From assembly GCF_005771675.1 (NCBI RefSeq), contig NZ_VAJM01000015.1, positions 1 to 64,000 of the forward strand: a stretch of 64,000 nucleotides of DNA, in the 5' to 3' direction. A program made the translations under genes and the position numbers. Positions 2,532 to 55,200 of this stretch are shown piece after piece. This DNA is from Hymenobacter jeollabukensis. GTDB lineage: Bacteria > Bacteroidota > Bacteroidia > Cytophagales > Hymenobacteraceae. Each line of letters opens with the position of its first letter. Positions within the stretch are counted from its first letter, which is position 1. The notes beneath the pieces are model-generated. The model ran no database searches, had not been told where the DNA came from, and was given only the letters and a program-made list of their open reading frames with translations.

Positions 2532-2819
2532 ATGACTCCAAAACGCACCCGTCGCCGCTTTACCGCCGAGTTCAAGGCGGAAGTGGCCTTGGCCGCCCTG
2601 ACCGAGCGGCAGCCACTGGCCGAGTTAGCTGCCCGTTATCAGCTGACCGTGGCCCAGACCAGCCACTGGAAGCTGCAACTGCGCCAGCAGGCGGCCCAGG
2701 TCTTTGCGCCTGCTGCCGGTAGCGCGGCCCCGCCTGCTCCGGACCTGGAGCCGCTGTACGCCGCCATTGGGAAGCTGCAGATGGAAAACCAGTTGCTAAA
2801 AAAAATACAGCGGCCGTGA
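2532..2819 (+). CDS. IS3-family transposase OrfA
   Basis: A 95-residue helix-turn-helix protein (RRRFTAEFKAEVALAAL, then a second helix pair around LAELAARYQLTVAQTSHWK) with a C-terminal leucine-rich helix, as usual for OrfA of IS3 elements. It binds the terminal repeats. The slippery A8 run at 2798-2805 lies just before its stop, so ribosomes can shift by -1 into orfB and make the OrfAB transposase. The orfA frame itself is intact. Confidence 0.85.
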   Translation: MTPKRTRRRFTAEFKAEVALAALTERQPLAELAARYQLTVAQTSHWKLQLRQQAAQVFAPAAGSAAPPAPDLEPLYAAIGKLQMENQLLKKIQRP

Positions 2820-3688
2820 CGGTTGCCCAGCAACGGGCGCTGGTGCAGGCCGGCACCGAGGGCAGCGTGGCAGCCCGCTGCCAGGCCGTGGGGCTGGCCC
2901 GCAGTAGCTACTATTACCGCCCACAGGGCGAAACGGCACTGAACCTGCAGCTCATGCGCCTGCTGGACGAGGAATATACCCGCCACAGTTTCAAGGGCGT
3001 CGTGGGGATGCGTGACCACCTGCGCCTGCTGGGCTACGCCGTCAACGAGAAGCGCGTGCGCCGGCTCTTGCGCCTAATGGGTCTACAGGCCGTCTATCCC
3101 AAGCCGCGCCTGTCGGTACCGGGCGCCGGTGTCACGCGCTATCCGTACCTGCTGCGCGAGCGGGCGGTGGCGGCGCCCAACGAAGTGTGGAGCACCGACA
3201 TCACCTACATCCCGATGGCCCGCGGCTTCCTCTACCTGGTAGCCGTGCTAGACTGGCACTCGCGCTACGTGCTCAGCTGGGGGCTGAGCAACACGCTAGA
3301 CGTGGGCTTTTGCCTCACTGCCCTGGCCGAGGCGCTGCGTCAGCAACCGGCCCCGTACATCTTCAACTCCGACCAGGGCAGCCAGTTCACCAGCGCCGCC
3401 TTCGAGCAGGCCCTGCTAGCGGCCGGCTGCCAGATCAGCCGCGACGGGCGCGGCCGCGCTACCGACAACGCCTTCGTCGAACGGCTATGGCGCTCCGTGA
3501 AATGGGAGTGTGTTTACCTCAACCCCGCCGAGGACGGCCGCCATCTCTACCAGCAACTGTAGGCCTATTTCACCTACTACAATCACCACCGCCCCCACCA
3601 AGCCCTGAAAGGCCAAACGCCTGCCACCATCTACGCCCAAACGCCTACCTTCAAGCCCGAGCCCATTTGCTTAACGAACCCCGCTTAA
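2816..3688 (+). pseudogene. IS3-family transposase OrfB, interrupted by an amber codon
   Basis: The DDE integrase part of the transposase. The catalytic motifs are present: STDITYIP (first Asp), FNSDQGSQFTS (second Asp) and DNAFVERLWRSVKWE (Glu). A TAG at 3560-3562 sits where related copies have CAG (Gln); the same frame then continues with AYFTYYNHHRPHQAL to a TAA at 3688. The lost tail of 41 residues includes a conserved part of the catalytic domain, so this copy is probably inactive unless the amber codon is suppressed. OrfB lies in the -1 frame relative to OrfA, overlapping it by four bases. Confidence 0.8.
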
Positions 3689-3775
3689 GCTGTCCAGTTT
3701 TTGGGGAGTAGTACAGATTACACTCCCTACAGCCTCTGAATCTTTTGCGGCTGATCTTCCACCACTCCTTGTTAT

Positions 3776-3970
3776 ATGTGTCCAACGCCCGACCCCGAAG
3801 AAGAGCCAACGGTTCCTTCTCACAACATCACGGACAAGGAACTCGACCGGGACTTGATCAATCTACACTTGCCGGAGCCGGACAGCTACATCGGCACCGA
3901 GGCCGAGCTTCGGAAGCTCTACGGTTCGGAGGAGTACGACCGCATGATGGAGGGGTTTAAAAATCTATAA
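3776..3970 (+). CDS. Small acidic hypothetical protein
   Basis: A 64-residue acidic protein with a loose Pro/Glu-rich start and a predicted C-terminal helical part (TEAELRKLYGSEEYDRMMEGF). Not recognised. It starts 60 bases after the IS3 element and is followed 36 bases later by another small gene on the same strand, so it may be the first gene of the + arm of the deiminase/DprA locus. Small acidic proteins at the head of such loci are sometimes antitoxins or inhibitors, but there is no direct sign of that here. Confidence 0.4.
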   Translation: MCPTPDPEEEPTVPSHNITDKELDRDLINLHLPEPDSYIGTEAELRKLYGSEEYDRMMEGFKNL

Positions 3971-4006: not shown

Positions 4007-4288
4007 ATGGAATCTACTGAGTACAGAGAAAGCCTGCAGCAGGCTGCCACCGCGCTGGTTGGTATTCGCGGGCAGCTGTTTGACCTGGTTTTCCAGGTCG
4101 CCATCACCGGCGAGCTGAAAGAGTGGGCTGACAGCATCGCGGTCGGAGAGCAGGTTACGTTCTCCAAAGAGATGTTCGCGGGCTGTGAGGATACCAATGT
4201 CCGGTTGCTCACGCAGCTGCTCACGGGCGTTGAGCAAACCTGCGACTCGTTGCTAAACCTGAACAACCTGCACCTCGGAGACGACTGA
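4007..4288 (+). CDS. Small helical hypothetical protein
   Basis: A 93-residue protein from the ATG at 4007 (a TTG six bases upstream is in frame). It appears wholly helical, without signal peptide or membrane segment, and acidic overall. Not recognised. It sits between the small acidic protein and the deiminase/DraG fusion, all on the same strand with short gaps, so co-transcription is likely. Confidence 0.45.
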   Translation: MESTEYRESLQQAATALVGIRGQLFDLVFQVAITGELKEWADSIAVGEQVTFSKEMFAGCEDTNVRLLTQLLTGVEQTCDSLLNLNNLHLGDD

Positions 4289-4340
4289 GCGTGGTTGCAG
4301 CCGATCTGCTTATCCCTTTATCACTGTGTTACCGCAACGT

Positions 4341-6290
4341 ATGGCGCACATTTTCCCCATCAACACTCTTTACTTTTCCGGCCAACTGCCGACGCAGGCC
4401 CCTCGGCTGTGGCAAGAGCTCACGGCGGTGCTGGAAGAGCACCACATACCCTATTCCCTACTGCCGCTGACCAAAGACATCTGGGCTGTCGACTACATGC
4501 CGGTACAGGTGAGCCGGACGGAATTTGTGCAGTTCCGCTATGATCCATCGTACTTGAAGTACAAGAAGTACGCCGACAAGCGAACCGATGCCGCTCCGAT
4601 CATGGCGACGCTGCCCCTGGGGGCGGCAGCTACCAGTACGCTGCGCCTCGACGGCGGCAACATAGTCCGGGTGGGACAGAAGGTTATCATTACTGACCGG
4701 GTGTTTGCCGAAAACCCCGGTATTCCGGCTAACCAGGTGCGCCGGCAGCTCAGCGAGGAATTGCGGGCCGAACTGATTATTATTCCCGCCGATCCGCGCG
4801 ACTTCACAGGCCATGCCGACGGCATGGTGTACGCTTTGGATGAGCGAACGGTGCTCGTCAACGACTACCAGGGCAAAGAGGCCACTTTGGGGCAGCAGGT
4901 AACCAGTGTATTGCAGAACGCCGGCCTGACGGTCATCCCGTTTCCCTACTTTCCCCAGGAAGAAAACGCTACCTCGGCGGTGGGCGCCTACATCAACTTC
5001 GTACGGGTGGGGCCCTTGGTGCTCTTGCCGGTGTTCGGGCTGCCTGCCGACGAGGCGGCGGTGTACCAGACCGAGCTATTGTTTCCCGGGTGCCAGGTGG
5101 TGCCACTGCTGGCAAACGAGTTGGCTCCTCTAGGAGGATTGCTACATTGCGTGACCTGGGCCGTAGACCAGCCCGGAGTACATGCCCTGCCGACGCAACT
5201 GCCCCAGCATAGCCCCCACTCATATTATGGGCGAGTACCGTTTCAGTTATGGGGCGGTGTGACCGAGCCTAACCGTCCTTTAGACCGGCGGGACCGGTAC
5301 CGCGGGAGCCTGCTCGGCGCTACCTACGGCGATGCCCTGGCTGCCCAAAGCACTCCCACCGGGATTCCGGCGCAGGCCACAGCGGTGACGCAACTAATGC
5401 TGTTCACAGCGGAAGGGCTGCTCCGGGCCGAGCACCGCGCCATGCAAAAAGGGATCGGCGGGGCCGAACCCCAGATCGTTTGGGAAAGCTGGCTGCGCTG
5501 GCTCAGCACGCAGGGTATTGACCGCCCCGGGTGGCATAGCGCCGACGAATGGCCTTCGGGCTGGCTCAGCCGGCAGCCGGTGCTGAAGCACTCACGTAAG
5601 CCGGCTCCCACGACCTGGCAAGCCTTGACAACCGCGCCTGCTCACCCGCCACAGCCCTTCGTGAATGCCAGTATGGGTGCGGATCCACTCGTGCGGGTAG
5701 TACCGTTTGGGTTGTTTCATTTTCAATCTGCGGCGTATGCCATGGAACAGGCCACAACTGTAGCCGCCTACACCCATGGTCATGCCGTAGCCCAGGCGTC
5801 GGCTGGCATGGTAGCTGCTATCGTGGCCCTGCTGGTGCGAGGTATTACCCTCGAAGAAGCAGTCCGGGTTGCCTACCACCTGCTGCCTCCCAATTCGGAA
5901 ACGGGCGCAAAGTGCCGACACGCCGTGAATATGGCCCTGCAGCTGCACGACAAACCGACCCACTTGCTCGCAGAAGAATACCACCAGTACATGCAGGCGC
6001 GAACCGCGCCGGCGGCGCTGATGGGTGCGCTCTATCACGCGCTGCACTTCCAGGATAGTCCCGAAAACGCCCTCATGAAAGCGTCCCAGGCAGGCGGACG
6101 TACCATGGCCGCGTTGACGGGTGCCCTACTCGGGGCGCATCTGGGAGAATCGGCTTGGCCCAGCGCCTGGCGAAGCCGGCATGACTTGGCTGGGCTTACG
6201 TTAACTATTGCTGACGATTTGTTTACGCGCGTTAAGGGTAGTTCCTATACCTTAGACACCGAATGGTGGGATCGTTATCCCGGCTACTAA
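4341..6290 (+). CDS. Peptidylarginine/agmatine deiminase-fold protein fused to a DraG-like ADP-ribosylglycohydrolase domain
   Basis: A 649-residue two-domain protein, starting at the ATG at 4341 (a GTG 15 bases upstream is in frame). Residues ~1-285 have the guanidine-modifying (PAD_porph/agmatine deiminase) core: W-x-x-D-Y-M-P near residue 50, L-D104-G-G-N, G-H158-A-D160-G and the catalytic H269-C270 before V-T-W. This part looks catalytically complete. Residues ~315-640 match the DraG/ADP-ribosylglycohydrolase fold: YRGSLLGATYGDALA (G330-D331), TQLMLFTAEGLLRA, and a late GG-x3-AALTGALLGAHLG. The usual metal-binding signatures are altered: S/T-D-D-T before Q is T347-A-V-T350, and the late G-G-D-x-D is G585-G-R-T-M589. 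The C-terminal half may therefore be a pseudo-enzyme or a binding domain. The fusion is unusual to me. It lies 97 bases before dprA on the same strand. The domains are certain; the role is unknown. Confidence 0.8.
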   Translation: MAHIFPINTLYFSGQLPTQAPRLWQELTAVLEEHHIPYSLLPLTKDIWAVDYMPVQVSRTEFVQFRYDPSYLKYKKYADKRTDAAPIMATLPLGAAATSTLRLDGGNIVRVGQKVIITDRVFAENPGIPANQVRRQLSEELRAELIIIPADPRDFTGHADGMVYALDERTVLVNDYQGKEATLGQQVTSVLQNAGLTVIPFPYFPQEENATSAVGAYINFVRVGPLVLLPVFGLPADEAAVYQTELLFPGCQVVPLLANELAPLGGLLHCVTWAVDQPGVHALPTQLPQHSPHSYYGRVPFQLWGGVTEPNRPLDRRDRYRGSLLGATYGDALAAQSTPTGIPAQATAVTQLMLFTAEGLLRAEHRAMQKGIGGAEPQIVWESWLRWLSTQGIDRPGWHSADEWPSGWLSRQPVLKHSRKPAPTTWQALTTAPAHPPQPFVNASMGADPLVRVVPFGLFHFQSAAYAMEQATTVAAYTHGHAVAQASAGMVAAIVALLVRGITLEEAVRVAYHLLPPNSETGAKCRHAVNMALQLHDKPTHLLAEEYHQYMQARTAPAALMGALYHALHFQDSPENALMKASQAGGRTMAALTGALLGAHLGESAWPSAWRSRHDLAGLTLTIADDLFTRVKGSSYTLDTEWWDRYPGY

Positions 6291-6387: not shown

Positions 6388-7365
6388 ATGAATGCAAAGG
6401 ATCAATTCCTCTTTGTTGTTTCACAGGTAGTAGGTGCTGTTACTCTCAAACATGCAGCAGACCTGCTGACTGATTACAGCTCTCCACCAGATACGCTGAG
6501 TGAACAACTGGCCTTTCTGCGTGCATTAAAGAAGCGAACGCCTCATTTTAAGAAAGAGGTCAGTGCTGAGCTCTGGGATGAAGCGTTGCTGAAGACAGAT
6601 AAAGTGCTTAATGCAGCCGCTAAGCACAACATCACTACGCTTAGTATTCAGGATTCCCGCTACCCTACCTTGTTGCGTCGGTTACCGGACGCACCTTATT
6701 TCCTGGACGTCAAAGGAGATGTAAACTGCCTGACCAACCGGTGCGTGGCGGTAGTTGGTACTCGTGAGATTACTGAGCACGGCCGCTTGTCCGGAAAGCG
6801 ACTGACCGAGGTTTTTATTGACCATAAACTCACCATTGTAAGTGGGCTCGCCGTGGGTTGTGATACCGTTGCCCACCAGGCTGCCGTCGATGCTGGTTCG
6901 CCTACTATTGCTGCAATGGCCGGAGGGTTGGATAACATTTACCCCAAAGAGAACCGGAAGCTGGCCGAGCAGATCGAAGCCCGTGGCTGTTTGATCAGTG
7001 AATACCGCTGTGGAGTCCGACCCATGGCGCAGATGTTTGTCCAGCGCGACCGGCTTCAGAGTGGACTGAGCTTGGGGGTCGTGGTGATCGAAACCGGAGT
7101 AACCGGTGGAACCATGCACACGGTTGGCTTTGCCCGCAAACAGCAGCGGCGTCTGGGGTGTCTGTATACGCACGCACAGCCCAAGTATGCCGCTCAATGG
7201 GCCAATGCGGAGAAATTCCAGGGTAATGCTTCTTTGGTGTCAGAGGGCAAAGCTGAGCCTCTGTACGATTTGCCCTCGATTACCACCTTTATTGATTCTC
7301 TGGCCAGTGTAGAAGCCGCCATTCCCGGCTCCAATCAATCCCGAGGTCAGCTTAACCTGCTATAA
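6388..7365 (+). CDS. dprA: DprA/Smf-family DNA-processing protein (paralogue)
   Basis: A 325-residue DprA homologue. DprA binds single-stranded DNA and loads RecA during transformation. The Rossmann core is clear: VVGTRE at 122-127, SGLAVGCD at 152-159 followed by a His in the next helix, GGLDNIYPKEN near 180-190, and an R-DR-(I/L)-x-SGLS-like loop (RDRLQSGLSLGVVVIE). The N-terminal ~85 residues carry a helical region. The C-terminal winged helix found in many housekeeping DprA proteins is short or absent. The next gene, a HAD phosphatase, starts nine bases later, so the two form an operon. The setting beside an atypical ComF-like gene suggests a specialised paralogue rather than the transformation gene. 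Confidence 0.85.
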   Translation: MNAKDQFLFVVSQVVGAVTLKHAADLLTDYSSPPDTLSEQLAFLRALKKRTPHFKKEVSAELWDEALLKTDKVLNAAAKHNITTLSIQDSRYPTLLRRLPDAPYFLDVKGDVNCLTNRCVAVVGTREITEHGRLSGKRLTEVFIDHKLTIVSGLAVGCDTVAHQAAVDAGSPTIAAMAGGLDNIYPKENRKLAEQIEARGCLISEYRCGVRPMAQMFVQRDRLQSGLSLGVVVIETGVTGGTMHTVGFARKQQRRLGCLYTHAQPKYAAQWANAEKFQGNASLVSEGKAEPLYDLPSITTFIDSLASVEAAIPGSNQSRGQLNLL

Positions 7366-7921: not shown

Positions 7922-10009
7922 TCAAAAACCACGCGTATCGACGGTGCGGGCCAGGAAGAGTCCTGTAACCTGGCTGGCGCCGTGCGTTCGCAGGGCTGCA
8001 GCATTTTGCAGGAACGAAGCACCTGACGTCATTACATCGTCAAATAAAAGAATGTGACGACCAGGGATGCGGGCATCCGTGTAGCGAAGGTTGTTGACCT
8101 TGTTCACGTTCACCAGCCCCTTTTTGGGTTCCTCGTCTACAACCCGCTGAATGCACTCGTAGCCGTTCTCTATGCCCGTTAACTGGCAGAGTAGCTGACA
8201 AAAAGTTTGATACCGCGATTTGGTTTTTGCCTGGGTGGAAGCGGGGATCACTACCAGCATCATCTGCTGAAGCACCACCGGGCTGAAGGAACGCAGCAGG
8301 GTTGTGGCCAATCGGTAAGCCACAAGGGCAGGGTTCTGACCGTCTTTGAAGTTGTAAACGCACTGACGATCCTGCTGCTGGGCGGGAGTGGCCTGTACCC
8401 GGGTGGGCAGATATGAAATCAGGCAATGATACGGATACCCGCTTTTGCTGCTCGTTTCGTAAAACAGCTCTTGGATTGCGCGCGCGTAAAGCGCCTGTTC
8501 CGTTGAAGTTGAGCCTGGCGAGGCACTTAATGTGGCGCGAAGAGCTTCTTTGGCCGTAGCTGCCTCCCGCTGAGCTGCAGTTGCCTGTTGCTGGGCGGTC
8601 CGGAGCCGTTGTTCAAGCTGTTGGTTCGCACTTAAACGCAGCCGGTTAGACGCCTGCTGTTGACTCAGTTCTTCCCGAGTCGCCTCCAGCGAGGATTGCA
8701 AGCGCGTCACTGTCTGTTGAGCCACTTCCAGCTGGGTCTGAATTACACTCAGCTGCTGGCTTTGTTGCCGCTGCTGTTCCTGCCGCTGCTTTTGCTCGGC
8801 ATCCAATTCAAGCCGGGCGGTTTCCAGCGCGGCGGCAAATTCATCAGCCTGCCGGTGCCATTGCTCCTGATGGAGGGCGTGCTCCGTTTGCTGCTGCTCA
8901 ACCAGCGCAACCTGAGCTGCGGCCTGTGCTTGCCAACTTTCAACCTCTGCCAGGGCTTGGTCACGCGCCGTTGCAGTGCTTTGCAGCCGTTGAAGCAGCT
9001 CCTTGAAGCGCGGCCATTGGCTTAGCGGAAAAGGAAGCCGGACGCTCAAGCGCCGCTGTGCGGCGTCCACGTGCTCGATGAGAACCAGCGCCTCGTCTCC
9101 GACACTGAAATGGTCTTTTAATTCGACGTCTGCGGGCGCGTCCGGAATAGCAGAGCGGTGAAGCAAGCCTTCAACTCCCGGCTCCAGCTCGACAAACAGG
9201 CCGAAGTTGGCAATGTTAATGACTTTGGCTACGGACTCTTTTTGAGGAGGATAGTTGACTTCGGCGCTGAGCCAAGGGTCGGGCGTTAGTAACCGGATGC
9301 TGCCGTGTAACAACATCTTTTCCTCATCACGGGAGGTGATCACCACCTGCTTGATATCGCCAAGCTCTGGGACAGGATGGTCTCGCCCCCACCCAAGCTC
9401 GTCCAGACCTACCCGAATGGTCAAGGCGCCGGCACGAAGCGCGATAAACTTTGGATTGCAGTAGTCTACCTGGCCCTCGATAATGTGGCCGATGCTTACG
9501 AGGCTCATTTCCAGAGCTCGTTGTTGCATTAAGGCCTCGCGGGCTTGCTGCCGTGCCATTCGTGCCGCTTCTGCAGCCTCCCGCTCACGGGCCGCGAGTT
9601 CCTGCTTGGCTTCCCGGTGTGAGACCACCAGCTGCTTGGATACGGGCTTGATTTCCAGAATCAGGACAGGAATGGTTTTCCCGACCAAAGGGTCATCCTC
9701 CGACGCAACGGTTGCCATTTTCACGGTAGAATGCGACCCCGGGATGAATGCTTCCCGTCCCAGTACCTGGGCTACGTATCCTCCTGTATTGCGGCGGAGT
9801 ACTTCTGCCTGCACAATATCACGTACTTCCAGGTGCGCTTTGACAACATCCAATGCAGCTCCTGGAGTCACGGGGCGAGGACGCGCCGCGGTGCTTCCCC
9901 GGGTAAGCAGAACCGGAAGTTCTATTCTGCCAAGTGCCGTTAAGCCCTTTAACGGCAAAGCCGTGTCAGCTGCGCGAATAACAGGGTCGGTAGCAGTAAA
10001 GTCCTCCAT
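7922..10009 (-). CDS. S1 RNA-binding / coiled-coil / ComF-like phosphoribosyltransferase
   Basis: A 695-residue protein of unusual make-up. Two S1-type OB folds are visible at ~60-132 and ~257-325 (the latter with the classic NFGLFVELEPGVEGLLH phrase), and a weaker one at ~172-240. A long Gln/Ala/Glu-rich coiled coil spans ~340-505. Residues ~515-690 form a type I phosphoribosyltransferase resembling ComF: VYNFKDG...ALVAYRLA, a middle segment with VIPAST, and the PRPP-binding loop ILLFDDVMTSGAS with D657-D658. So it could bind nucleic acid, oligomerise, and use PRPP or a nucleotide. It faces the dprA-HAD pair tail to tail (25 bases apart). DprA and ComF proteins act together in DNA uptake elsewhere, which makes the pairing notable. 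A 227-base gap with an inverted repeat separates it from the upstream gene, so it may have its own promoter. Confidence 0.8.
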   Translation of the reverse strand: MEDFTATDPVIRAADTALPLKGLTALGRIELPVLLTRGSTAARPRPVTPGAALDVVKAHLEVRDIVQAEVLRRNTGGYVAQVLGREAFIPGSHSTVKMATVASEDDPLVGKTIPVLILEIKPVSKQLVVSHREAKQELAAREREAAEAARMARQQAREALMQQRALEMSLVSIGHIIEGQVDYCNPKFIALRAGALTIRVGLDELGWGRDHPVPELGDIKQVVITSRDEEKMLLHGSIRLLTPDPWLSAEVNYPPQKESVAKVINIANFGLFVELEPGVEGLLHRSAIPDAPADVELKDHFSVGDEALVLIEHVDAAQRRLSVRLPFPLSQWPRFKELLQRLQSTATARDQALAEVESWQAQAAAQVALVEQQQTEHALHQEQWHRQADEFAAALETARLELDAEQKQRQEQQRQQSQQLSVIQTQLEVAQQTVTRLQSSLEATREELSQQQASNRLRLSANQQLEQRLRTAQQQATAAQREAATAKEALRATLSASPGSTSTEQALYARAIQELFYETSSKSGYPYHCLISYLPTRVQATPAQQQDRQCVYNFKDGQNPALVAYRLATTLLRSFSPVVLQQMMLVVIPASTQAKTKSRYQTFCQLLCQLTGIENGYECIQRVVDEEPKKGLVNVNKVNNLRYTDARIPGRHILLFDDVMTSGASFLQNAAALRTHGASQVTGLFLARTVDTRGF

Positions 10010-42533: not shown

Positions 42534-43248
42534 TGAAACGGGCAATGACAAGAATTAAGCTTCAGGCAAAGTCATGTCGCTGGCGTGAAACGCGACCATG
42601 AAGGATTGGTGGAAAAAGGCATATGCCAAGCTAGCGCTATCAGTAATGAACGGCACCTGCGGGTCGTTGGCACTGCTGCCAATAGTGGGGGGGACTGTAA
42701 GTCAGTAATGTGGTGAGAGCTGTTAACCATACTGTCCGGGCACCTAGCCACTACCAACTCAACGTACTGGTTCGTTTGACTTTTAGCTATAGCCACGTTC
42801 CCAAGCGCACTCTTATCAGATAATTGATTTTATATAAATATTATAATTAATATTTGTATTTATGAAATAAATTTCGAAGTTGCACATGCAGCTTCTTATT
42901 CCTAAGTAGTGGCTTCTTCCAGGCATTTTACAAAGCGCAGTAGGCTAAGCTCCACCCATTGCGCATGAGGAAAAAAGTGGAAGGAGTGCCGAATCCGATA
43001 ACCGTATATTAGAAAAGTTAAAGATTTAGCGCCCTATCACTAGTACTTAAACCAGGTATGGATAGAGCCACATCCGGTACTAGAACTCCTTCACCAGTTA
43101 TCGTTTTGTACCTGCCTTAACAGACAAGCGCATGGCATTGCATCTTTACCCCAACTTCGGGATTTTCCCCGTCTGCGCCTGGAAAACCGAACTATTCAGC
43201 GCAAAAGAGCACCATCCAAAACCTCCGCATGTGAGGAAAACAAGGGGG
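42534..43248. other. Leader region of the adhesin gene, about 700 bp
   Basis: No gene is supported except a possible longer form of the adhesin from 43132. A strongly AT-rich stretch at 42815-42885 contains the promoter candidate at 42824. The remaining ~390 bases would form a long 5' leader; no riboswitch or clear hairpin was recognised. Confidence 0.45.
42824..42856 (+). promoter_or_regulatory. Candidate Bacteroidetes promoter for the adhesin
   Basis: TTG at 42824-42826 and AATATTTG ending at 42856 match the Bacteroidetes -33/-7 pattern (TTG, TANNTTTG) at all but one position, in the most AT-rich stretch of the leader. It lies ~390 bases before the start at 43249. Confidence 0.3.
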
Positions 43249-46200
43249 ATGGTTAAACCGACATGGCTATTGCTATTGGCGTTGCTATTGTGGCACACGG
43301 CGGCACGTGCCCAATGGACTTCGCAAAACTTGGGCACCACGACCACTAATCGCGGAATCCAGGATTTCGATATGCCAAATGCTAACGTTATCTGGGGTGT
43401 CCAATACGATGCCAGCGGAACGACTCCCTCAGCACCTGGTTCGGGGGTAATCTTATCTACGAACGGTGGTACGAGCTGGCTCAGCACGAATGTGGCGACC
43501 CCAAACTTCGGCACCAAGAATATTGCCAACGTCTCGGCCATTGATGCGGCAACTGCCTACTTTTCATGCTACAACCCAACCAGTGGCGGAGGGCTTCTGG
43601 TAAAAACCACCAATGGGGGCGCCAGCTTTACTGAGGTTGCCACGCCCACTTTTACCTTTTTGGATTTTGTACACTTCTTTAACGCTACTACAGGTCTTCT
43701 GGTGAGTGACCCGAGCGCCGGGGAATACGAAGTGTTTCGCACAACGAACGCAGGAGCTACCTGGACGCGGGTACCTGGTGCTAGCCTGCCAAACCCACAG
43801 GCGGGTGATGCCGCCATCGTTAATCAATTTTCCACATTTGGCACTCATATCTGGTTCGGAACGGCCTTAGGCCGTGTGTACCACTCGCCAGACCAAGGCG
43901 TAACCTGGACACAAAGCGACACCGGCATTCCTGCGCCGAATGGAGTAGCGTTGGATAACTTGACGTTCACGGATGCGCTCAATGGGTTGGCAGTAGGCAG
44001 CAATGGTACTGTGGCACGCACCACCGACGGCGGAACAACATGGACGACCATCACTCCTTGCGGGGCGTTTGCAAGAAGGCGAATTTCTGCGGTTCCAGGT
44101 TTGCCAACCACTATGGTTGGCATCAGCTACGATGCAACAAATTTAGCTTCTTCCGTTACCTATGACGGCGGTCAAAGCTGGACTCCTATCAACACCGGCA
44201 CTTCCTTTTCAACGGTGTATTTTTTTGATGCCACGCACGGTTGGGCCGGTGGCTACTCCCAAGCCGGTGGTGTGGGAGGCGTATACAAGTATACAGGAAC
44301 AGCGCTTTCACCGCCCGTTGTAACGGCTCTGGGGGGGCTTCGGTGTGGCGCCGGCCCCGTTACGCTAACAGCTAGTGGCGCCCCGACAGGAGGGCAGTAC
44401 CGCTGGTACACCGCGCCTGCCGGGGGCACGTCAATACCCGGCGCGATTACGGCTTCATTCACGACCCCCAGCTTAAGCAACACGACAACATACTATGTGA
44501 GCGCAACCACCGCGTGCGGAACTTACGAAACTGCTCGTACGGCCGTAACAGCCACAATTGCGACCGCACCCAGCGCACCCGTGACCGTAGGCGCCTGCGG
44601 CATCAGTTCGGTTACCCTTACTGCTTCCGGTAGTCCTGTTGGCGGCTCATACAGGTGGTACACGGTATCCTCGGGGGGAACGCCCATAGCCGGCGCCACC
44701 TCGGCAACCTATACCACGCCCGCGCTAAGCACGACCACTACGTATTATGTGAGTGCTGTGACCAGTACGGCGAACGGGGGCTGCGAAAGCACCCGCACTC
44801 CCGTTACCGCAACCCTGACCTCAAACTTGAGCGCGCCAACCGCAACCGGCGCTACTACTACCGGTTGCGGCGCCGGCTCCGTCACACTAACTGCCACTGG
44901 CGCTCCGGCGGGCGGAACCTATGGGTGGTACACAACTGTAACCGGCGGCACCCCCATACTAGGCATTACCTCGGGCTCCTATACCACACCGGTGCTGAGT
45001 GCGACCACCACTTACTACGTAAGCACTTTCACAAGCGCGGCTAATGGTGGCTGCGAAAGCCCAAGAACGGCGGTCACGGCGGTCGTCAAACTTCAGCCCA
45101 CCGCCGCCATTGTGCCTGCAAGCAGCACAACGTTCTGTTCCGGCAGCGTGACATTGGCCGCGAATGCCGGGGCTGCCCTGTCGGCTGGGAGTACTACCGC
45201 GCTCAACGCGCTGGCAGGAAGCGGCACGCCCATAATCTGCGATTGTCCACCTGGTTATGTGGCCGTAGGCTACACGGGGCGTACAGGTTCTTGGATGGAC
45301 CAAGTGCAGTTGGCTTGTAAACAGTTACGCGCTGACGGCACGCTGGGCAACACGGTCGTGTACACCAGCTCCAATGGAACGAGTACCGGAGGAGGAGCCA
45401 CCGGCCCTTATTTGTTCCCCGACAATACCGTCATGGTAGGTGCCACGGCTTATACCAATAGCAATTATATTGCCAGCCTGCAAGGATATGGCCAATCCGT
45501 CGCCTACATCGCGGGAGTGGGGGCGAACAACAATACGCCGACTACCAATGGCCTGATGAGTGCTGCCAGCCTTGGGAATGTACTGGGTACGGTGTATGCG
45601 CCGAGCGGAGCGGTCATCACGGGCATGTCTGGCTGGAGCGGCTTGTATACGTCAGGAATCACCTTCCGCTACACTCCCATTGCCCAATTCCTGGAAACGT
45701 ATCTGTGGAGTAACGGTGCTACCACTCCCACCATTGTAGCGGGCACATTGGGAACTTATACCGTTACGGTGAGCAACGCCCAAGGCTGTTCGGTTACTTC
45801 TGCACCGATCACCGTGACCGCAACAACAGCCCCACCGGCCCCCAGTGTAACAGGCAACCGCCGGTGTGGCACCGGGGTCGTCACGCTTACAGCAACCGGT
45901 GCGCCTTCCGGTGGATCGTACGCTTGGTACACGACGGCTACGGGGGGAGTTCCGATTAACGGCGCTACCTCAGGCTCCTACACGACTCCGGTGCTGGCGC
46001 TTTCCACCACTTACTATGTGAGCGCTCTGAGCGCATCAAGCTGCGAGGGGCCTCGAACTCCGGTCATCGCTACGATTGACCCAGCGGTGCCCATTCCCAC
46101 CGTTACTGCTCTGCCCTCTACGGTCTCGTTGGGGCAAGCAACTACTCTGAGCGTCACAAGCCCCGTCGCCGGGACCATCTATGCGTGGTCGGGCCCTGGT

Positions 46201-49200
46201 TTGACCAACGCAACGGGTCCGACCGTGACCGTGGCGCCACCAGCGACCGGCCCCAACACCTATACCATAACGGCCAATGTGGGGAACTGCTCAGCCAATA
46301 GCCAGTTGACCGTTGCTGTTACGCTTCCGCCACCCACTATTACCGGCTTTACGCCTTCCGCCGGTCCAGCCGGTACCAGCGTGGTGATCACGGGCTCGGG
46401 CCTCCTGGGTAACACCGCTGTAAGCTTCAATGGCGTAGCGGCCACCTTCTCCGGCGTAACGAACACCGCCATTACGGCCATTGTGCCACCCGGCGCTACG
46501 ACCGGCCCCGTTTCAGTGACAACCCCGGGCGGAACGACCAGCGGCACCAGTAACTTCACGGTAGTGCCCGTGACGCTGGCGGTCCAAGCCGCGGTGTGTC
46601 TCAACGCGGGCACGTTTGCCTTGACGGGCGGTTCGCCCGCGGGCGGCACGTACACCGGCCCAGGCGTGAGTGGCGGACAGTTCAACCCGCTTACGGCTGG
46701 TGCTGGCAGGCACACCATCACCTACTCGTACACGCTGAATGGTGTGACCAGCACGGCCACGCAGCCGCTGACGGTATCTGCCTTGCCCAGCGTGACGTTG
46801 GCGGCCTTTGTCCCGCGCTGTCAAGGCAGCGCGGCTTTCATTCTGGCCGGTGGGCTACCAACTGGCGGCACGTACTCTGGGGTGGGCGTGAGCGGCGGGC
46901 TCTTTAACCCGACCATGGCGGGCGTAGGCACGCACACCATCACTTACAGCTATACGGATGGCAACGGCTGTACGGCGTCGGCCATCCAGACCATTACTGT
47001 GCTGCCGACGCCCACGTTTGCCAGCTCGGCCACACAGGTGTGCACCGGTCAGCCCGTGACGCTGACGGTGAGCAACGCCGGCCCCGGCGCCACTTACCTG
47101 TGGAGCCCCGGCGGCCAGACCACGGCCAGCATTACTAATTCGCCCACGGCGGCCACTACCTACTCAGTGACGGTGACTAACGCAGCGGGCTGCACCTATC
47201 CGTTTAGTCAAGTTGTTACCATTAGTCCCTACACCATTCCGTTGGGGACGGTGAACCTATCGTTGCCGCTTGCCAACGCGCAAAACCTTGAGCCTGCAGG
47301 AACTACCCTATCGTGGGCCCCCGTCGCGCAAGCCGTGAGCTACGATGTGTATCTGTGGCTGTCATCGAGCCCAGTAGGCCAGCCGGCGACGCCACTAATT
47401 TCCAACCTGACCAGTATTAACCTAGCGCTACCAGCTGCGTCGTTAGCCTTTGGACAAACCTACAACTGGCAGGTGGTGGCCCGTAACCCATGTTTTAGTC
47501 GGGCCAGCGCGGTGCGCACTTTCTCCACTAGGTTCCTGCCTGACTTACGAGTCACCAACTTGGCAGCCCCGGCTACCGCTACGGTGAATCAGACCCTCAC
47601 CGTAAGTTGGCGGGTAACTAATAGCGGCGCGGGTGGTACAGGAAGCACGACCTGGACCGATTATGTGTACTTGTCCCCCGACCACGACATTAGGGTTGCG
47701 GAAGATGTATTGCTTGGACAATTCCCAAACCAGCAAGCCCTACAGCCCAATCAATCCTATGTGCAAACGTTAGATTTAGCAATTCCGTCGACTGTTAGAG
47801 CTGGGAGTTATCATCTGTATGTGCTTACTAATCGAATCGATGCCTATTGCCAGAGTGTGTTCATTAATGGGACAGATTCGTGTTCCACGGTTAGGGGAAT
47901 CCACTCTCCCCCAACCGTGACCGAAACCAATATAGCAAACAACTGGCGCCATCAACCACTCACGATTCAGTACCCCGCAAGTCTGCCGGACCTGGCGTTA
48001 GGACCAATAGGAGTGCCGTCGGTCGCCTTCACCAGCAGCCAACTAAATGCGACCTACCGCCTGATAAACCGAGGTACTGCGTCGGCCCGCGGTAATCTTT
48101 CCTTCCCTAGTGGTCCCTACCTCTGTGACGGAAATTATTGGTTGAATAGCTTTTATCTATCCCGTGACTCGATGCTGAGCACCGCGACCGATGTATTGCT
48201 GAGCACAGAGAGATTTTTCCCGCGAGACGTAAAGTTTGGCGCGCGTGCAACCGTATTCGTGCCTGGGACCGTCACATCTGGTGGGGGAGGCTCCAGCGGT
48301 AGCTACCAATGCGCACCAGGAGCATTAACTCACTCTGATGTTATTGAGGTAGACAGCTCCCTAGTCACCCGTGCGGCTCTTGTAATTCCCTTCAATACCC
48401 TCAGCGGCACTTATTACGTGCTAGCGGTGGCCGACGCTGGCGATAACGTGCTGGAAGGTTACGGCGAAAACAACAACGTGCGGGCCAGTTCCCCTATCGC
48501 CATCACCTTGGCTCCTCCTCCCGACTTGGTGGTGACACAGGTGACGGCTCCGGCGACGGCCGGAGTAGGCCATACCCTGGCCGTAAGTTGGCAGGTACAA
48601 AATGACGGCGCCAAGGCGCCTGACGCGAGTGAAACGGTATGGTACGACAAGGTTTTCCTTTCCCGGCTGCCCACCTTTAACCCCGACTCAGCCATAGCAT
48701 TGGGTGAACTTATGCATACGGTGGCCACCGCGCCTTTCGGACCGGGTGCTCGTTATAGCCAAAGCCAATCGCTACCATTGCCCCGGGGGCTGAGTGGACA
48801 GTTCTACGTCTACGTTTGGACTGATGCGCACAACCAAGTATTTGAATACAATGCCGATGGCAATAATATCAGCCGCAGCCCCAATCGAGTCAATCTGACC
48901 TACACCACCTATCCCGACCTGGTGGTTACCAGCATCAGCTTGCCCGATACCGTCGTGTTCGGCCAACCCTACACGATGAGCTGGACTATCAAGAACCAAG
49001 GCCTCGCAGCTACGGCGGGGGCCTTTGTCGACCAGATCGTAGCTTCTGCGGACACGTTGCTTAGTAGCAGCTACGCGGTTCAGAGCAGTGCGGCTTATAG
49101 CGGGATTATACAACCTGGCCAGTCCGTGACCCGGCAGCTCACTCACACCTTTTCTTACCAGCCGGCTTTGGCTAACCGCCGGGCGTACTATTTTGTGCGC

Positions 49201-52200
49201 ACCGATGCCACCGATGCCGTGTACGAATACGGCCACGAGAACAACAACCAGTCGGGCACGCACCGCGTGGGAAGGGGCGGAGTGTTCATGAAAGTGGTCG
49301 TGAGCAGCGGGACTGGGCCAAGTAGTGGGCCTTTGCCCGTACACGACTTACGCCCACTTGCGCTGAGTGCGCCCGCCAGCGCTGGCTCCGGCAGTCGCAT
49401 AAATATGACGGCACGAGTCCGCAACTTTGGCCCCGATTCTATTGCCAGTGGGACTTGGCGTGACGTGGTGTACCTCTCTACCGATACAGTACTCAGCGCA
49501 GGTGACCAAAACCTAACCTATATAAGTCGGCAAGCTACCCGCGCAGCGGGCAATAGTTATAGCCAGAGCCTGGCCGTGACGCTGCCCAACGGCATCAGCG
49601 GCATGTATTACCTACTTTACTCTACTGGTGAATCAGCCAGCGGCGTATACGACGCTGTACCGGCCAATAACGTGCGGTTTCGACCAATCGCTATGCAACT
49701 TACATCTCCTGCCGACCTGGTTGTGACATCAATGGTCAGCCCTGACAGCTTGTATGCTGGCCAAACAATCCGGCTGCCCTACCGACTGGCGAACCAAGGT
49801 GCGGGTACTACCGTGCTGAGTCGTTCCCCTTGGTACGTGGGTGCCTACTTAAGCACCACGCCTACGTTGACTGGGACCGCGCGACAAGTAGGCAGCCGTC
49901 CCCTCACCCAGACTCTGGCCGCCGGCGCTGCCCTGGTCGATACGGTTACCTTTACGGTTCCGAGTACTTATCTAGGCAATTACTACCTAATCGTAAAAGC
50001 TGACAATAGCGACGACATCTATGAGTACAATGCTGAAGGCAACAATACGCGGAACCAGCCCGTGTACGTGCAAGCGGCCCCACAAGCTGACTTGGTGGTG
50101 ACGGACGTAAGCGGTCCTGCCACGGCCCTGTTAGGTGTTCCAACCACGCTCAGCTATACCGTCCGTAATACGGGAGCGTATGCTACGGTTGGCACTCTCA
50201 CCAACAACCTATACGTATCTAACAACCGACCCTACCTCAGCGCGGGTGATCGTTTCTTTGGACAACAGACCCTTCAGGGGCTGGTACTGGCACCAGGTGC
50301 CCAGCTAACCCGTACCGTCACGGCCACGCCCCTTGCCCTTAAACCCGGCTACTATCGCAGCGTTGCCCAGGCTAATGCTCTTCAGCAAGTAGCTGAAACC
50401 AACTACACCAACAACCGGCTGGTTGGCAGCGACTCCACGCACTGGGACGTGTCAGTGCTACCACTAGGTGTCCAGGTGCGTAACATCCCGTTGGCTGCTA
50501 CCGACCACCTCTTTTACCAATTGACCGTAGCCGCTAACCTAGACGTATTGTTAACCCTGTCCAGCAATCTGACAACTGGCTCGAACGAGTTGTACGTAGC
50601 CTACGACCGCATTCCGACCAGTTCCGATTACGATTATCGGTTTACCACGCCGGAATCGCCAATTCAGCAGATTGTGCTGCCGGCTACACATGCGGGCACC
50701 TACTATATCTATGTCCGAAACGCTTCGCAGAGCCCAATACAACAAGTGAGCCTGCTGGCGCAACCCCTCCCTTATTCAATTCGGAGCATTACCCCATCCA
50801 CAGTGGGTAAAGGCGTGGTTACTACGGCGCTTAATGGGGCCGGATTCCGCAGCGGCATCAGGGTGCGCCTGCGCAACAGCAGTTCCTCGATAGTAGCGAC
50901 GGCACAGGTAACCCGTTTCATCAGCACCATGGAATTGCGGCTGCGCTGGGACCTCACCACAGTGCCGGCAGGAGCTTATACCGTAGAAACCGAAAACCCT
51001 AACGGGGATATGCAACAGCTGCCTGACGGCTTGCATATAGTGCCAGCGACTACTTTCTCGGTTGACTATCAAGAACAGGCACCGAGCACGCTACGAGCCG
51101 GACGTTCGGGAGAGTTTGTCTACAGCTTTCGCAACACATCGAACGTCGACATTCCCGTATTGCACGGTCAGTTTAGCATGCTTAGTGGCGCCCAGATAAC
51201 CAATGTGCGGGGCACAGCTGGCAATCCTCTACTAGGCTCTCGCTGGAATTTGACTTCAACAGCTGGTGCCACGGCCGTGAAGGATTGGTATGCTCCAGGT
51301 GATGGCCTCGTTTACGTGCCCTTCATCGCACGCAATGTGCCTCCTGGAGGCCAGGTTACCATACAATTCACGGCAGGTTTACAACACTACCGCAGTAACG
51401 AACTTACCGTGAGGCAGCAGGCATTCGCCTACGAAACCTCCGACCTACTTGCACGGTTAGGTGCGCAAATTGAAACAATGCGTCGCTTTCTGCTGGCAAA
51501 TCCTGTAGAACTAAAAGTGAACGTCTCACCGGCCATGATGGCACTGGTCGCGAACCGAAAGGCTTACGCTGATACCTTGCTTACCCGCTTGTTCAGAGTC
51601 GGGCTACTTGAGCCCGCTGATACGGTAGGGTTTGATTTTACCTGTGATAGCTGCCTGCATTTGGACAGTGCTCCTGTAACAAGCACTGGCCAATTGTTCA
51701 ACTCTGGCTATGCTATAGCGACACAGGACACCACTGGCGTCGCATTGTCTGCCAATGGGGCCTATCGGTGGAAAATAAACAAGTATGGTGGCCAGGCGGG
51801 GCAAGCCCTGGGATGGGACCTGCTACGCGTAAACGGTACCTTGGCGGTACAAGCCAGCCCGTCCCAACCTTTTGTAATTCAAGTCACCTCTTTTTCATAC
51901 CTAAATCAACCGGGCCTGCTGGCGGGTTGGTATCCTGCGGTCGATGCTAGTTGGCCCATTGCCATTGCCAGTGGCGGCATTACCGGCTTCGCCGCAACAA
52001 AGTTTAGCGTTGACGCCAGCCGATTTAGCGCACATAACAACCTGTACGGCGGGAGTTTTAGCGTGCACCAAGCCGGCGATACGCTAAAACTTGTTTTCAC
52101 GGCCGCGCGTCCTGGTCTTGGCATGGCCGGTATACCCGGGGCCCCCGGGGCCCCGGGCGAGCCTGGTAGCCCAGGTGGGAAGGGAGGATCTGGCAACAAT

Positions 52201-55200
52201 ACGATAGCTCCCGGAGTCGGAGGGAAGGGTGGACAAGGCGGCCCGGGCATTCCAGACTGGGCTGCTCCTAACGGCATTGCTGTGCCGGCGGGCAATGGCG
52301 GCCGGGGTGGCGAAGGCGGCGACCCGCTCCCGAATACCTCAAACCGGGGGGGGCACGGCGGTGACGGCGGAGATGCAGGTGATTTTGCCCTGAACTCCAA
52401 TGGTACTCTGACTGGAGCAGGGACTGTAGGGTTGGGTGGTAGCCCGGGGCAAAGCAGCGCTGGCTACCCGTCGGGGAACCCTGGCAACGCCGGACAGGTA
52501 AGCAGTCGAACAACTGCGCCTGTCTCAACTTCACCAGACGCTGGTACTGTGGTATTGAGTAGGGGGTTGGGTGATATCAATAATCCTGCAGGGAAATCAT
52601 GTAATCCCTTACCGGTTTCGGACGACTTATGCGACGCGACAGTTGATGCGCTTGGCACTATGGAAACATTTTTCAATGAAAAAGCCAAGTTCAAAAGAAA
52701 GGGGGTTGCTTACGTTACAAAGTACTTATCAAAGGCTGTTGCGCCAGGTGACCCAATGACTGCTTGTACCCTGGATGCAATGGTAAACTTTGTAGGCGAT
52801 AGAGTTGAGTTGATTGGGCCAGAAGACCTAAATCCTGTAGGTGTAGCGGTATTTTTTAAGGATTTTACTATCGCAGGGTTACAGTTGGGCCTTCGGCTTT
52901 ACAACTGCCAAAACCAGTTTGGTAGGGGTAAAGGGCAGGTTGAACCAGGCCATATTGACCAGGTAGGAGAGTGGATAAATCTACTGGATATTGGAAAGGG
53001 TTTTAAACTGGATTGGCTTGTTAATGGCAGCATTTATGCCTTGAAAAAGCTGTGTGTCCCAATAGTGAACCCTTGTGACCCGAACGAAATCCAAGGACCA
53101 GAGGGATACGGTCCTGCTAAGATCGTAGCGGCCTCGGCTACGTTGCCTTATAAAGTGCTGTTTGAGAATGACTCAGCACAGGCATCTGCCTCTGCTCAAC
53201 GCATTAACATCCGGGTGCCTATTGATCGAAATCTCAACCCGCTGAGCGTACAATTGGGGGATGTGAATTTCCATAACCGCACCATGCATATTCCCTCTGG
53301 GCTGGCTAGTTACCACACAGTATTCCCACTGGCAGACTCCATTGGAGTGGATGTAGAATTAACAGCTGGGGTAGATGTGGTGCGTCGGGAATTGTTTTGG
53401 GAGTTCCAAGCTATTGACCGGGCAACCGGCCTACCGCCGGCTAACCCACTGGCTGGATTCCTGCCAGCTAATTCCTCAACCCACGATGGTGAAGGGTTCG
53501 TCTTGTTCTCCATGCGTCCACGCCGAGGGGCGGTCACGGGTGATTCCATCAAGGTAAAAGCCGCTATCGTCTTTGACAACAATGACGTGATTGACACGAA
53601 TGAAACGCTAAACACCGTTGATGCCGTGGCTCCGCATTCCTTGGTTAGCCCCATAGCGGCAGCGGCCGACTCCGTATACCAGATTCGTGTTCTGGCCCAG
53701 GATGATACCGGTGGTAGCGGGGTGCGCAGCTTTGACCTCTATGTTTCAACGGACGCACAAAACTATCAGCCCTACCTAGCCGGACTTACCGCTTCTCCAG
53801 TATCGTTTACGGCGCGCGCAGGCCAGAACTACTATTTCTACGCGCTAGTGACCGACAATGTCGGCAATGCGGAAAGTGCGAAAACCGCATTTGAAGCCTC
53901 AATAGCACCTTGTCCGCTGCCAACAGCAGTACAGGTGCTGAATATTACGACCACTACAGCCGGCGTAGCCTTTGTGGGCAGTCTTCTAGCCACCGGGGGA
54001 TATCAGGCAATTGCCACACCCGTAGGTGGTGGAGCTCCCGTTAGCGTGCAGGGAACAAGTTCACCATTAGTCTTAAACGGACTCAGTCCAGGCACTAGTT
54101 ACACGCTCATTATACGTGGCGACTGCGGCGGGGCGGATAGCTTCACATCTCCAATCCTTTTCACTACTGCGGGAACACCATTACCCGACCTGGTGGTGAG
54201 CACCAACCAGACCCTACACGGCGGTAATTATCGCAACGTGACCATCGTGGCCGGCGGCATCCTGCACCTCACCTCATCGCTGACGGTGGCGGGGGCTATG
54301 AGCGTACAAACCGGTGGAATGCTCGACACGCACCCGGCTGGTACTGCTTCTTGCGCGCTGGTGAGCGGTACGGGTAGCTTCGAGCTAATGGCTGGGGCCA
54401 CCTTACGCATCTGCGACCCAGCCGGGATTACGCTCAGCGGCAGTACGGGCAGCGTCCAGGTGGAGGGAACCCGCCGCTTCAGCAGCGATGCCAGCTACGT
54501 GTATGACGGCCTTGCGCCCCAGGTAACTGGCGCGGGCCTGCCAGCTCAGGTACGCTACCTCGGCAACGTGGGTGAGCCACTCGCGCTAAGTCAGGCCGTG
54601 AGCATCGCGCAGGTGCTGGAAGCCAACGCCGCCTTCAACACGGCCGGCATGAGCTGCACGCTGCTATCTTCTGCCCAGGGCACGGCCCTAGTGCGCTACA
54701 ACGACACCACGAACCCAACCATGACTGGTAACGTGACCGTGCAGCGCTATATAGACCCGGCCCAGAACCCCGGCCCCGGCTACCGCCACTACGCCTCGCC
54801 GGTCATCAACGCGCCGTTTGCCGACCTGACCACGTCGGGTTTCACGCCCACGCTGAATCCGGCATATAATACGGCCGCCCAGCCCAATACTGTAACGCCC
54901 TTCCCCACCGTGTTTGGCTACGACGAAAGCCGGATTCCAACCACCGTGAGCAACTACGGGGCCTTCGACAAGGGCTGGTTCTCGCCCGGCGGCAACTTGG
55001 TAACAGGCCGCGGCTACACGGTGAACATCCCGGCCACGGAGAAGGTGGACTTTGTGGGCCTGCTCTACAACGGCACCCTGAATCTGCCGTTGAGCTTTGT
55101 GCCCAGCGCCGTGCCTGGCTGGCAGTTGCTGGGCAATCCCTATGCCGCGCCCCTCGACTGGAGCCTAGTGAACCGCCCGGTCGGCATGGACGCTGCCATG

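Follow-up and report, generated by a model that had tools for sequence, protein, structure and literature searches.

A deiminase-fold domain fused to a DraG-fold domain lacking its metal ligands, at a putative anti-phage locus of Hymenobacter

The fused gene and its surroundings

We analysed a 64,000-nucleotide stretch of Hymenobacter jeollabukensis DNA (contig NZ_VAJM01000015.1, positions 1 to 64,000; hereafter, the window). Between positions 4326 and 6290, the plus strand holds a single uninterrupted reading frame without an internal stop. Translation from the ATG at 4341 yields 649 amino acids followed by a stop; a GTG at 4326 is an alternative start and gives a longer form of 654 amino acids. 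On the longer form, the Pfam family PAD_porph scores 85.5 bits (cut-off 25; residues 49–278) and ADP_ribosyl_GH (PF03747) scores 117 bits (cut-off 26.2; residues 348–613). Both scores lie far above their cut-offs, and therefore neither domain is a chance match. The features of the locus are as follows, with residues numbered from the ATG.

3776–3970, plus strand: 64-codon ORF, inside a block (3715–3949) that is 92% identical to the block preceding the GmrSD genes of Hymenobacter perfusus
4010–4288, plus strand: 92-amino-acid ORF; members of its family, supported by profile matches, precede the AAG-like gene at five loci of standalone deiminases (L103, L105, L109, L111 and L112; 57–63% identity)
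4341–6290, plus strand: fused gene, 649 amino acids; each Pfam domain exceeds its cut-off; H. perfusus encodes a fused homologue
4341–5180, plus strand: deiminase-fold domain, residues 1–280 (D46, W48, D51, D104, H158, D160, N219, H269–C270); Foldseek matches 1zbr, 1xkn and 6b10
5181–5276, plus strand: variable linker, residues 281–312; 66% identity between the two fused proteins; low pLDDT
5277–6287, plus strand: pseudo-DraG/ARH domain, residues 313–649
6388–7365, plus strand: ShosA-like DprA protein (PADLOC ShosA, E 1.5e-70)
7922–10009, minus strand: S1-domain protein with a ShosT-like phosphoribosyltransferase end (PADLOC ShosT, E 3.2e-10)

A HAD protein is encoded between the ShosA-like gene and the convergent S1-domain gene. 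Transposase genes with rve and HTH_21 domains, presumably of the IS3 type, occupy 2532–3700, just 5′ of the conserved block of the fusion locus. Elsewhere in the window, 43132–56130 is one ORF of 4,332 amino acids.

Modelled alone, the C-terminal domain was predicted with a pLDDT of 88 and a pTM of 0.91, and it matched ARH3, Tri1, ARH1 and DraG with Z scores of 28.6–33.1. These included ARH3 at 33.1 (r.m.s.d. 2.6, 285 residues aligned) and Tri1 at 32.1 (6drh); a second Tri1 entry, 6dre, topped the profile search. The full-length model (mean pLDDT 74) matched agmatine deiminases and ARHs, and because its pTM is 0.55 the arrangement of the domains within it is not to be trusted. The fusion of a deiminase fold to a DraG fold, which had been proposed from the letters of the sequence, is thus borne out both by Pfam and by the predicted models.

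The fused protein encoded in H. perfusus (NZ_RWIU01000010.1, L034:5001–6950) is 84% identical, with an open frame. There, the same 5′ block is followed by two GmrSD_N proteins, the fusion and a type IV-like HNH protein (E 2.9e-8), with UzuA farther along. Defence genes therefore adjoin the fused gene in two of two contexts (ShosA and ShosT-like in one; the GmrSD pair, HNH and UzuA in the other), a sample of two contexts only in which such neighbours can be hitchhikers. The fused protein itself matched none of the PADLOC 2.0.0 families at E 0.01, and Pfam matched no ADP-ribosyltransferase family in the genes scanned near either fused gene.

A conserved deiminase half and a rewritten DraG half

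The N-terminal half keeps 37 of the 39 positions that are at least 90% conserved among 46 standalone homologues. Its cysteine and its D/W/D (WxxD), GHxD and YxN motifs align with solved agmatine deiminases, so that the guanidine-modifying landmarks read from the sequence, including H269–C270, are indeed in place. Two observations qualify this: each of the 46 standalone homologues has Asp (DGGN) where agmatine deiminases have the Glu of LEGG, and against the equivalog for agmatine deiminase (AguA), TIGR03380, the score is 33.2 bits, far below the cut-off of 381.8. We consequently do not assign the domain as specifically an agmatine or an arginine enzyme. Its PAD_porph score and the presence of the catalytic Cys, His and Asp place it in that family; among solved structures it comes closest to agmatine deiminases and putative peptidyl-arginine deiminases, and as judged from its residues this half is probably an active deiminase-fold hydrolase.

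The C-terminal half belongs to the DraG/ARH group by fold and by PF03747, but it lacks the hallmarks of an active hydrolase, namely the Asp pairs and the Glu of the Glu flap. We assessed its pocket by alignment rather than from model coordinates. All four metal-binding Asp residues, present in each of the eight intact relatives compared, are missing from both fused proteins (0 of 4 left). Three rewritten segments stand out in the alignment with these relatives.

5379–5390, plus strand: TAVT (residues 347–350) in place of T/S-D-D-T; both Asp gone, Thr retained
5670–5696, plus strand: SMGADPLVR (residues 444–452) in place of the S-K-G-C-G-x-x-M-R loop
6093–6107, plus strand: GGRTM (residues 585–589) in place of GD-S/C-D-S/T; both Asp gone, together with a two-residue deletion

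In addition, the Glu-flap Glu, found in eight of eight relatives, is Thr or Ala in the fused proteins and is followed by a 21-residue deletion, and VAEEAL has become TAPAAL in both (two Glu now Pro-Ala); SKGCG and VAEEAL also vary in some of the eight intact relatives. Both fused proteins retain the Thr of TDDT, the last Thr/Ser, THGH, the loop Ser and the loop Arg. The nearest intact DraG relatives that we found (L064, L065 and L066; 31–34% identity) are standalone or differently fused. The loss of the S/T-D-D-T and late GGDxD motifs in the original prediction was therefore correct, and it extends to the Glu flap, SKGCG and VAEEAL; the predicted structure has the DraG/ARH fold, and alignment to ARH relatives shows key pocket residues lost from it. 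In ARH enzymes, substrate positioning needs both metal ions, as described in part of Rack et al. 2020 (PMC7050489), which makes ordinary ADP-ribose binding by the C-terminal domain unlikely.

Comparing the two fused genes allowed us to ask how selection has acted on each half. Pairwise dN/dS (Nei–Gojobori) is 0.144 for the deiminase half and 0.115 for the dead DraG half (residues 313–649), indicating purifying selection on both. In segments of the former pocket, hand-picked for this comparison, 5 of 93 sites differ, compared with 46 of 244 in the rest of the domain, and only 1 of 336 circular shifts gave a value as low. The ratio of pocket to remaining divergence is 0.28 for the fused pair, 0.21–0.70 for intact pairs and 0.69–0.82 for the fused protein of the window against intact relatives. 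The former pocket thus seems, from these alignments, to have been rewritten and then held constant. We read this conservation as constraint rather than as evidence of a ligand, because the segments also contain core helices and intact pairs conserve the pocket likewise.

That the DraG residues were lost through something other than simple decay, as the original prediction supposed, follows from their shared absence in the 84%-identical H. perfusus protein and the dN/dS of 0.115, and agrees with the low pocket divergence. A decaying fusion without function, which the lost catalytic residues might bring to mind, has next to no chance of being the right account: the frame is open in both genomes, the dead half is under purifying selection, and the synonymous divergence of the fusion between the two genomes (0.64) is close to that of AccA (0.68; Pur_DNA_glyco, 1.12). 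The same similarity to AccA gives no support to a recent horizontal transfer of the fusion, yet the fusion occurs in only 2 of 204 genomes of the family.

Distribution of the fusion and partners of the standalone deiminases

Only these two fused proteins were found. A scan of the species collection returned 22 loci, one of them full length, which was that of H. perfusus. The C-terminal domain matched in 12 of 291 genomes of the order, fused only in the same two, and in 18 of 395 genomes of the phylum, fused only in the source genome. The deiminase profile found nothing at 35 DraG loci (L058–L092, with about 1.5 kb of flank), a pattern search of viral contigs with the whole fused protein found nothing, and none of 8 phage and 16 plasmid records covered 80% of the fused protein.

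The fused protein has matches in 58 of 200 family genomes, and in 56 of these the deiminase half accounts for the match. We examined 40 standalone deiminase loci, each with flanks of up to 8 kb, and counted as a partner any AAG-like, HNH_B or UDG-like gene on the same strand that overlapped the deiminase gene or lay within 30 nucleotides of it. A partner was present at 27 of the 40 loci: AAG-like at 12, HNH_B at 9 (including one fusion with the deiminase) and UDG-like at 6; the other 13 had none within 30 nucleotides. None of 19 control loci, taken from 19 of the 40 genomes, had such a partner. The first 20 loci contributed to building the partner profiles; among the second 20, which did not seed the search, 11 had a partner, although two of these loci (L162 and L164) gave rows to the AAG-like profile. 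A motif rule applied to an overlapping set of loci found a partner in 30 of 46.

In the deiminase tree, with midpoint or L043 rooting, the fused pair is the sister group of a 12-member clade (support 0.91), every member of which has an AAG-like partner. The AAG-like profile, which matches 30 of 200 family genomes, has no match in either fused genome, and a partner role for the fused protein is accordingly inferred from its relatives. Of 200 family genomes, 18 carry a strong AAG-like match (E < 1e-25); 14 of the 18 also match the fused protein, and in three of the remaining four a stop interrupts the AAG-like match. An E-x-Y is invariant in the AAG-like family, which aligns with the Pur_DNA_glyco profile along the conserved region (P 1.4e-4; 2.8e-5 in an earlier alignment; 0.34 and 0.38 for unrelated profiles). 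The name is a profile-level lead, as the one example scanned had no Pfam match and the profile no significant PDB match. The UDG-like label, which is based on a motif, is weaker still; neither of two examples scanned had a Pfam match.

The deiminase family is also fused directly to HNH_B (L098) and to an AAG-like domain (L146). With the dead DraG fusion, these cases suggest a physical association with modules that act on nucleic acids. Counting families rather than genes, 265 PADLOC families were matched by 114 genes of 19 deiminase loci and 63 by 112 genes of 19 control loci, a comparison in which many models overlap and from which L103 (no control) and one control gene (L125:9433–14745; 1 of 113) were omitted. 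A DraG gene lies beside a non-fused deiminase at 3 of 62 loci with unequal flanks (L035, L055 and L107) and at none of 19 control loci; three cases are too few to build on.

Related arrangements occur on mobile elements. On a contig labelled as gut phage (MT836602.1), L146:1901–4876 encodes the AAG-like–deiminase fusion, and the ORF just upstream has a weak, altered DraG match (E 0.018, below the Pfam cut-off). Three deiminases of viral contigs (L147:5881–7368, L148:2857–4281 and L152:5941–7479), with AAG-like genes upstream, carry long C-terminal extensions that have no significant DraG match and end in DDVPF or SDLPF, which we take to resemble the acidic tip of SSB proteins. Bacteroides phage SJC03 (L142:5997–7786) encodes a 350-amino-acid relative of the deiminase, preceded at a short distance by an HNH gene, and five related phages also match. 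On two Flammeovirga plasmids (L143:5001–6403 and L144:5001–6412), the deiminase gene is followed directly by an HNH_B gene. At L095:4374–7467, genes for an OLD-type nuclease and a UvrD-type helicase, presumably a Gabija-like pair, lie directly upstream of HNH_B and the deiminase.

Interpretation and known systems

We propose, at roughly even odds (about 0.5), that the fused gene encodes a two-domain protein of an anti-phage locus, in which a live deiminase-fold enzyme is joined to a pseudo-DraG docking or recognition module. The locus would be a defence island to which the protein belongs functionally. Its N-terminal half would be a live guanidine or amidine hydrolase from a family of short Bacteroidota deiminases, whose members may often work next to proteins that act on nucleic acids (HNH nucleases, or glycosylase-like proteins of the AAG-like or UDG-like type). 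The C-terminal DraG/ARH fold, without the four metal-binding Asp and the Glu flap, would no longer hydrolyse ADP-ribose and may instead replace the separate partner as the docking or recognition module.

Other readings of the same protein can be weighed against this evidence. An ordinary metabolic enzyme, acting on agmatine or arginine and carrying the DraG domain as a structural appendage, would fit PAD_porph membership, the catalytic Cys/His/Asp and the nearest solved structures, but we consider it unlikely given the AguA score, the family-wide Glu-to-Asp change, the sporadic distribution and a context of DNA-acting and defence genes. We give somewhat less credence to a more specific idea, reached by analogy, that the deiminase family edits base modifications: it might hydrolyse a guanidine- or amidine-type group on phage nucleobases (for example, formamidine-bearing 7-deazaguanine) and thereby open them to a glycosylase (AAG-like or UDG-like) or a nuclease (HNH or GmrSD), much as BapA prepares the substrate of Brig3, with the dead DraG domain as a reader holding the modified nucleotide or a partner.

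Two readings that keep an ADP-ribosylation theme strike us as improbable. Tri1, of a toxin/immunity pair, blocks its toxin. Since Tri1 entries are among the closest folds and head the profile search, the dead domain might likewise be an immunity or decoy protein that blocks the ADP-ribosyltransferase of some phage or competitor by binding it; no transferase appears in the Pfam matches near either fused gene, however, and the Tri1 equivalog scores 23.2 bits against a cut-off of 490. Alternatively, as the original prediction had it, arginine chemistry would link the halves, with the dead domain reading ADP-ribosylated arginine and the deiminase editing arginine nearby. The retained ARH fold (Z 33.1), THGH, the loop Ser and Arg, the two Thr at the Asp motifs and the pocket conserved between the fused proteins are all compatible with such a reader, as are crystals of ARH3 D77A and D314A with ADP-ribose and Mg, going by their PDB titles (7l9h and 7l9i). 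We nevertheless regard it as no better a prospect than the decoy, because the four Asp, the Glu flap and the SKGCG loop have changed together, because both metals are needed for substrate positioning according to the part of PMC7050489 cited above, and because no ADP-ribosyltransferase family was matched nearby. Context also points away from arginine chemistry: genes for glycosylase-like and HNH proteins frequently accompany those of the deiminase's relatives.

The defence-locus protein with a pseudo-DraG module resembles known enzymes only in part. With agmatine deiminases and other PAD_porph enzymes (6b10, 1xkn, 2jer and 3hvm) it shares the fold, Cys, GHxD, WxxD and YxN, but its deiminase half is about 280 residues long, has Asp for the LEGG Glu, falls far under the equivalog cut-off and sits in another gene context. 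From the DraG/ARH hydrolases (ARH3, Tri1 and Rhodospirillum rubrum DraG; Z 28.6–33.1) it differs by the absence of the four metal-binding Asp and the Glu flap, the rewritten SKGCG loop and the fused deiminase. A scaffold-type role for an ARH fold beyond hydrolysis has a precedent in the pseudoenzyme ADPRHL1, as outlined in parts of PMC7390403 and PMC10601310, and the titles of structure entries place ARH chains in the unexplained settings of the Ycf2/Orf2971–FtsHi motor and mitoribosomes (8xks, 8xqw, 6sga and 9hny); as far as these sources describe them, they are without a fused deiminase and outside defence loci. Here, selection maintains a bacterial DraG fold whose catalytic residues are gone, and the question of which ligands dead ARH folds bind thereby becomes directly testable.

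Many members of the deiminase family in Bacteroidota are encoded beside glycosylase-like proteins and nucleases. The papers searched (the PMC open library, with term look-ups in PMC13092281, PMC13160076 and PMC11078745) hold no link between this deiminase-fold family and phage defence. The nearest parallel is Brig3–BapA, for which the preprint sections consulted (PMC13160076) describe a hydrolase, BapA, that removes the modification from a base and thereby allows a glycosylase to excise it. BapA consists of ASCH-like barrels rather than a deiminase fold, Brig3 belongs to the UDG superfamily, and a comparable pairing with a glycosylase-like partner is seen with the standalone deiminase relatives and not at the fused genes. 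A predicted ADP-ribosyl glycohydrolase adjoins brig1 and its Nocardioides homologue, as noted in a portion of PMC11078745, and another, which the authors excluded for the phage they tested, lies near brig3 (PMC13160076). In these excerpts, the Brig1 and Brig3–BapA loci thus combine an anti-phage DNA glycosylase, in the case of Brig3 with a second, substrate-preparing enzyme, and an ADP-ribosyl glycohydrolase adjoining or near both. We favour a defence-locus enzyme with a pseudo-DraG module because of this model, the glycohydrolases by the brig loci and the fusions of the deiminase family to HNH_B, AAG-like and DraG domains.
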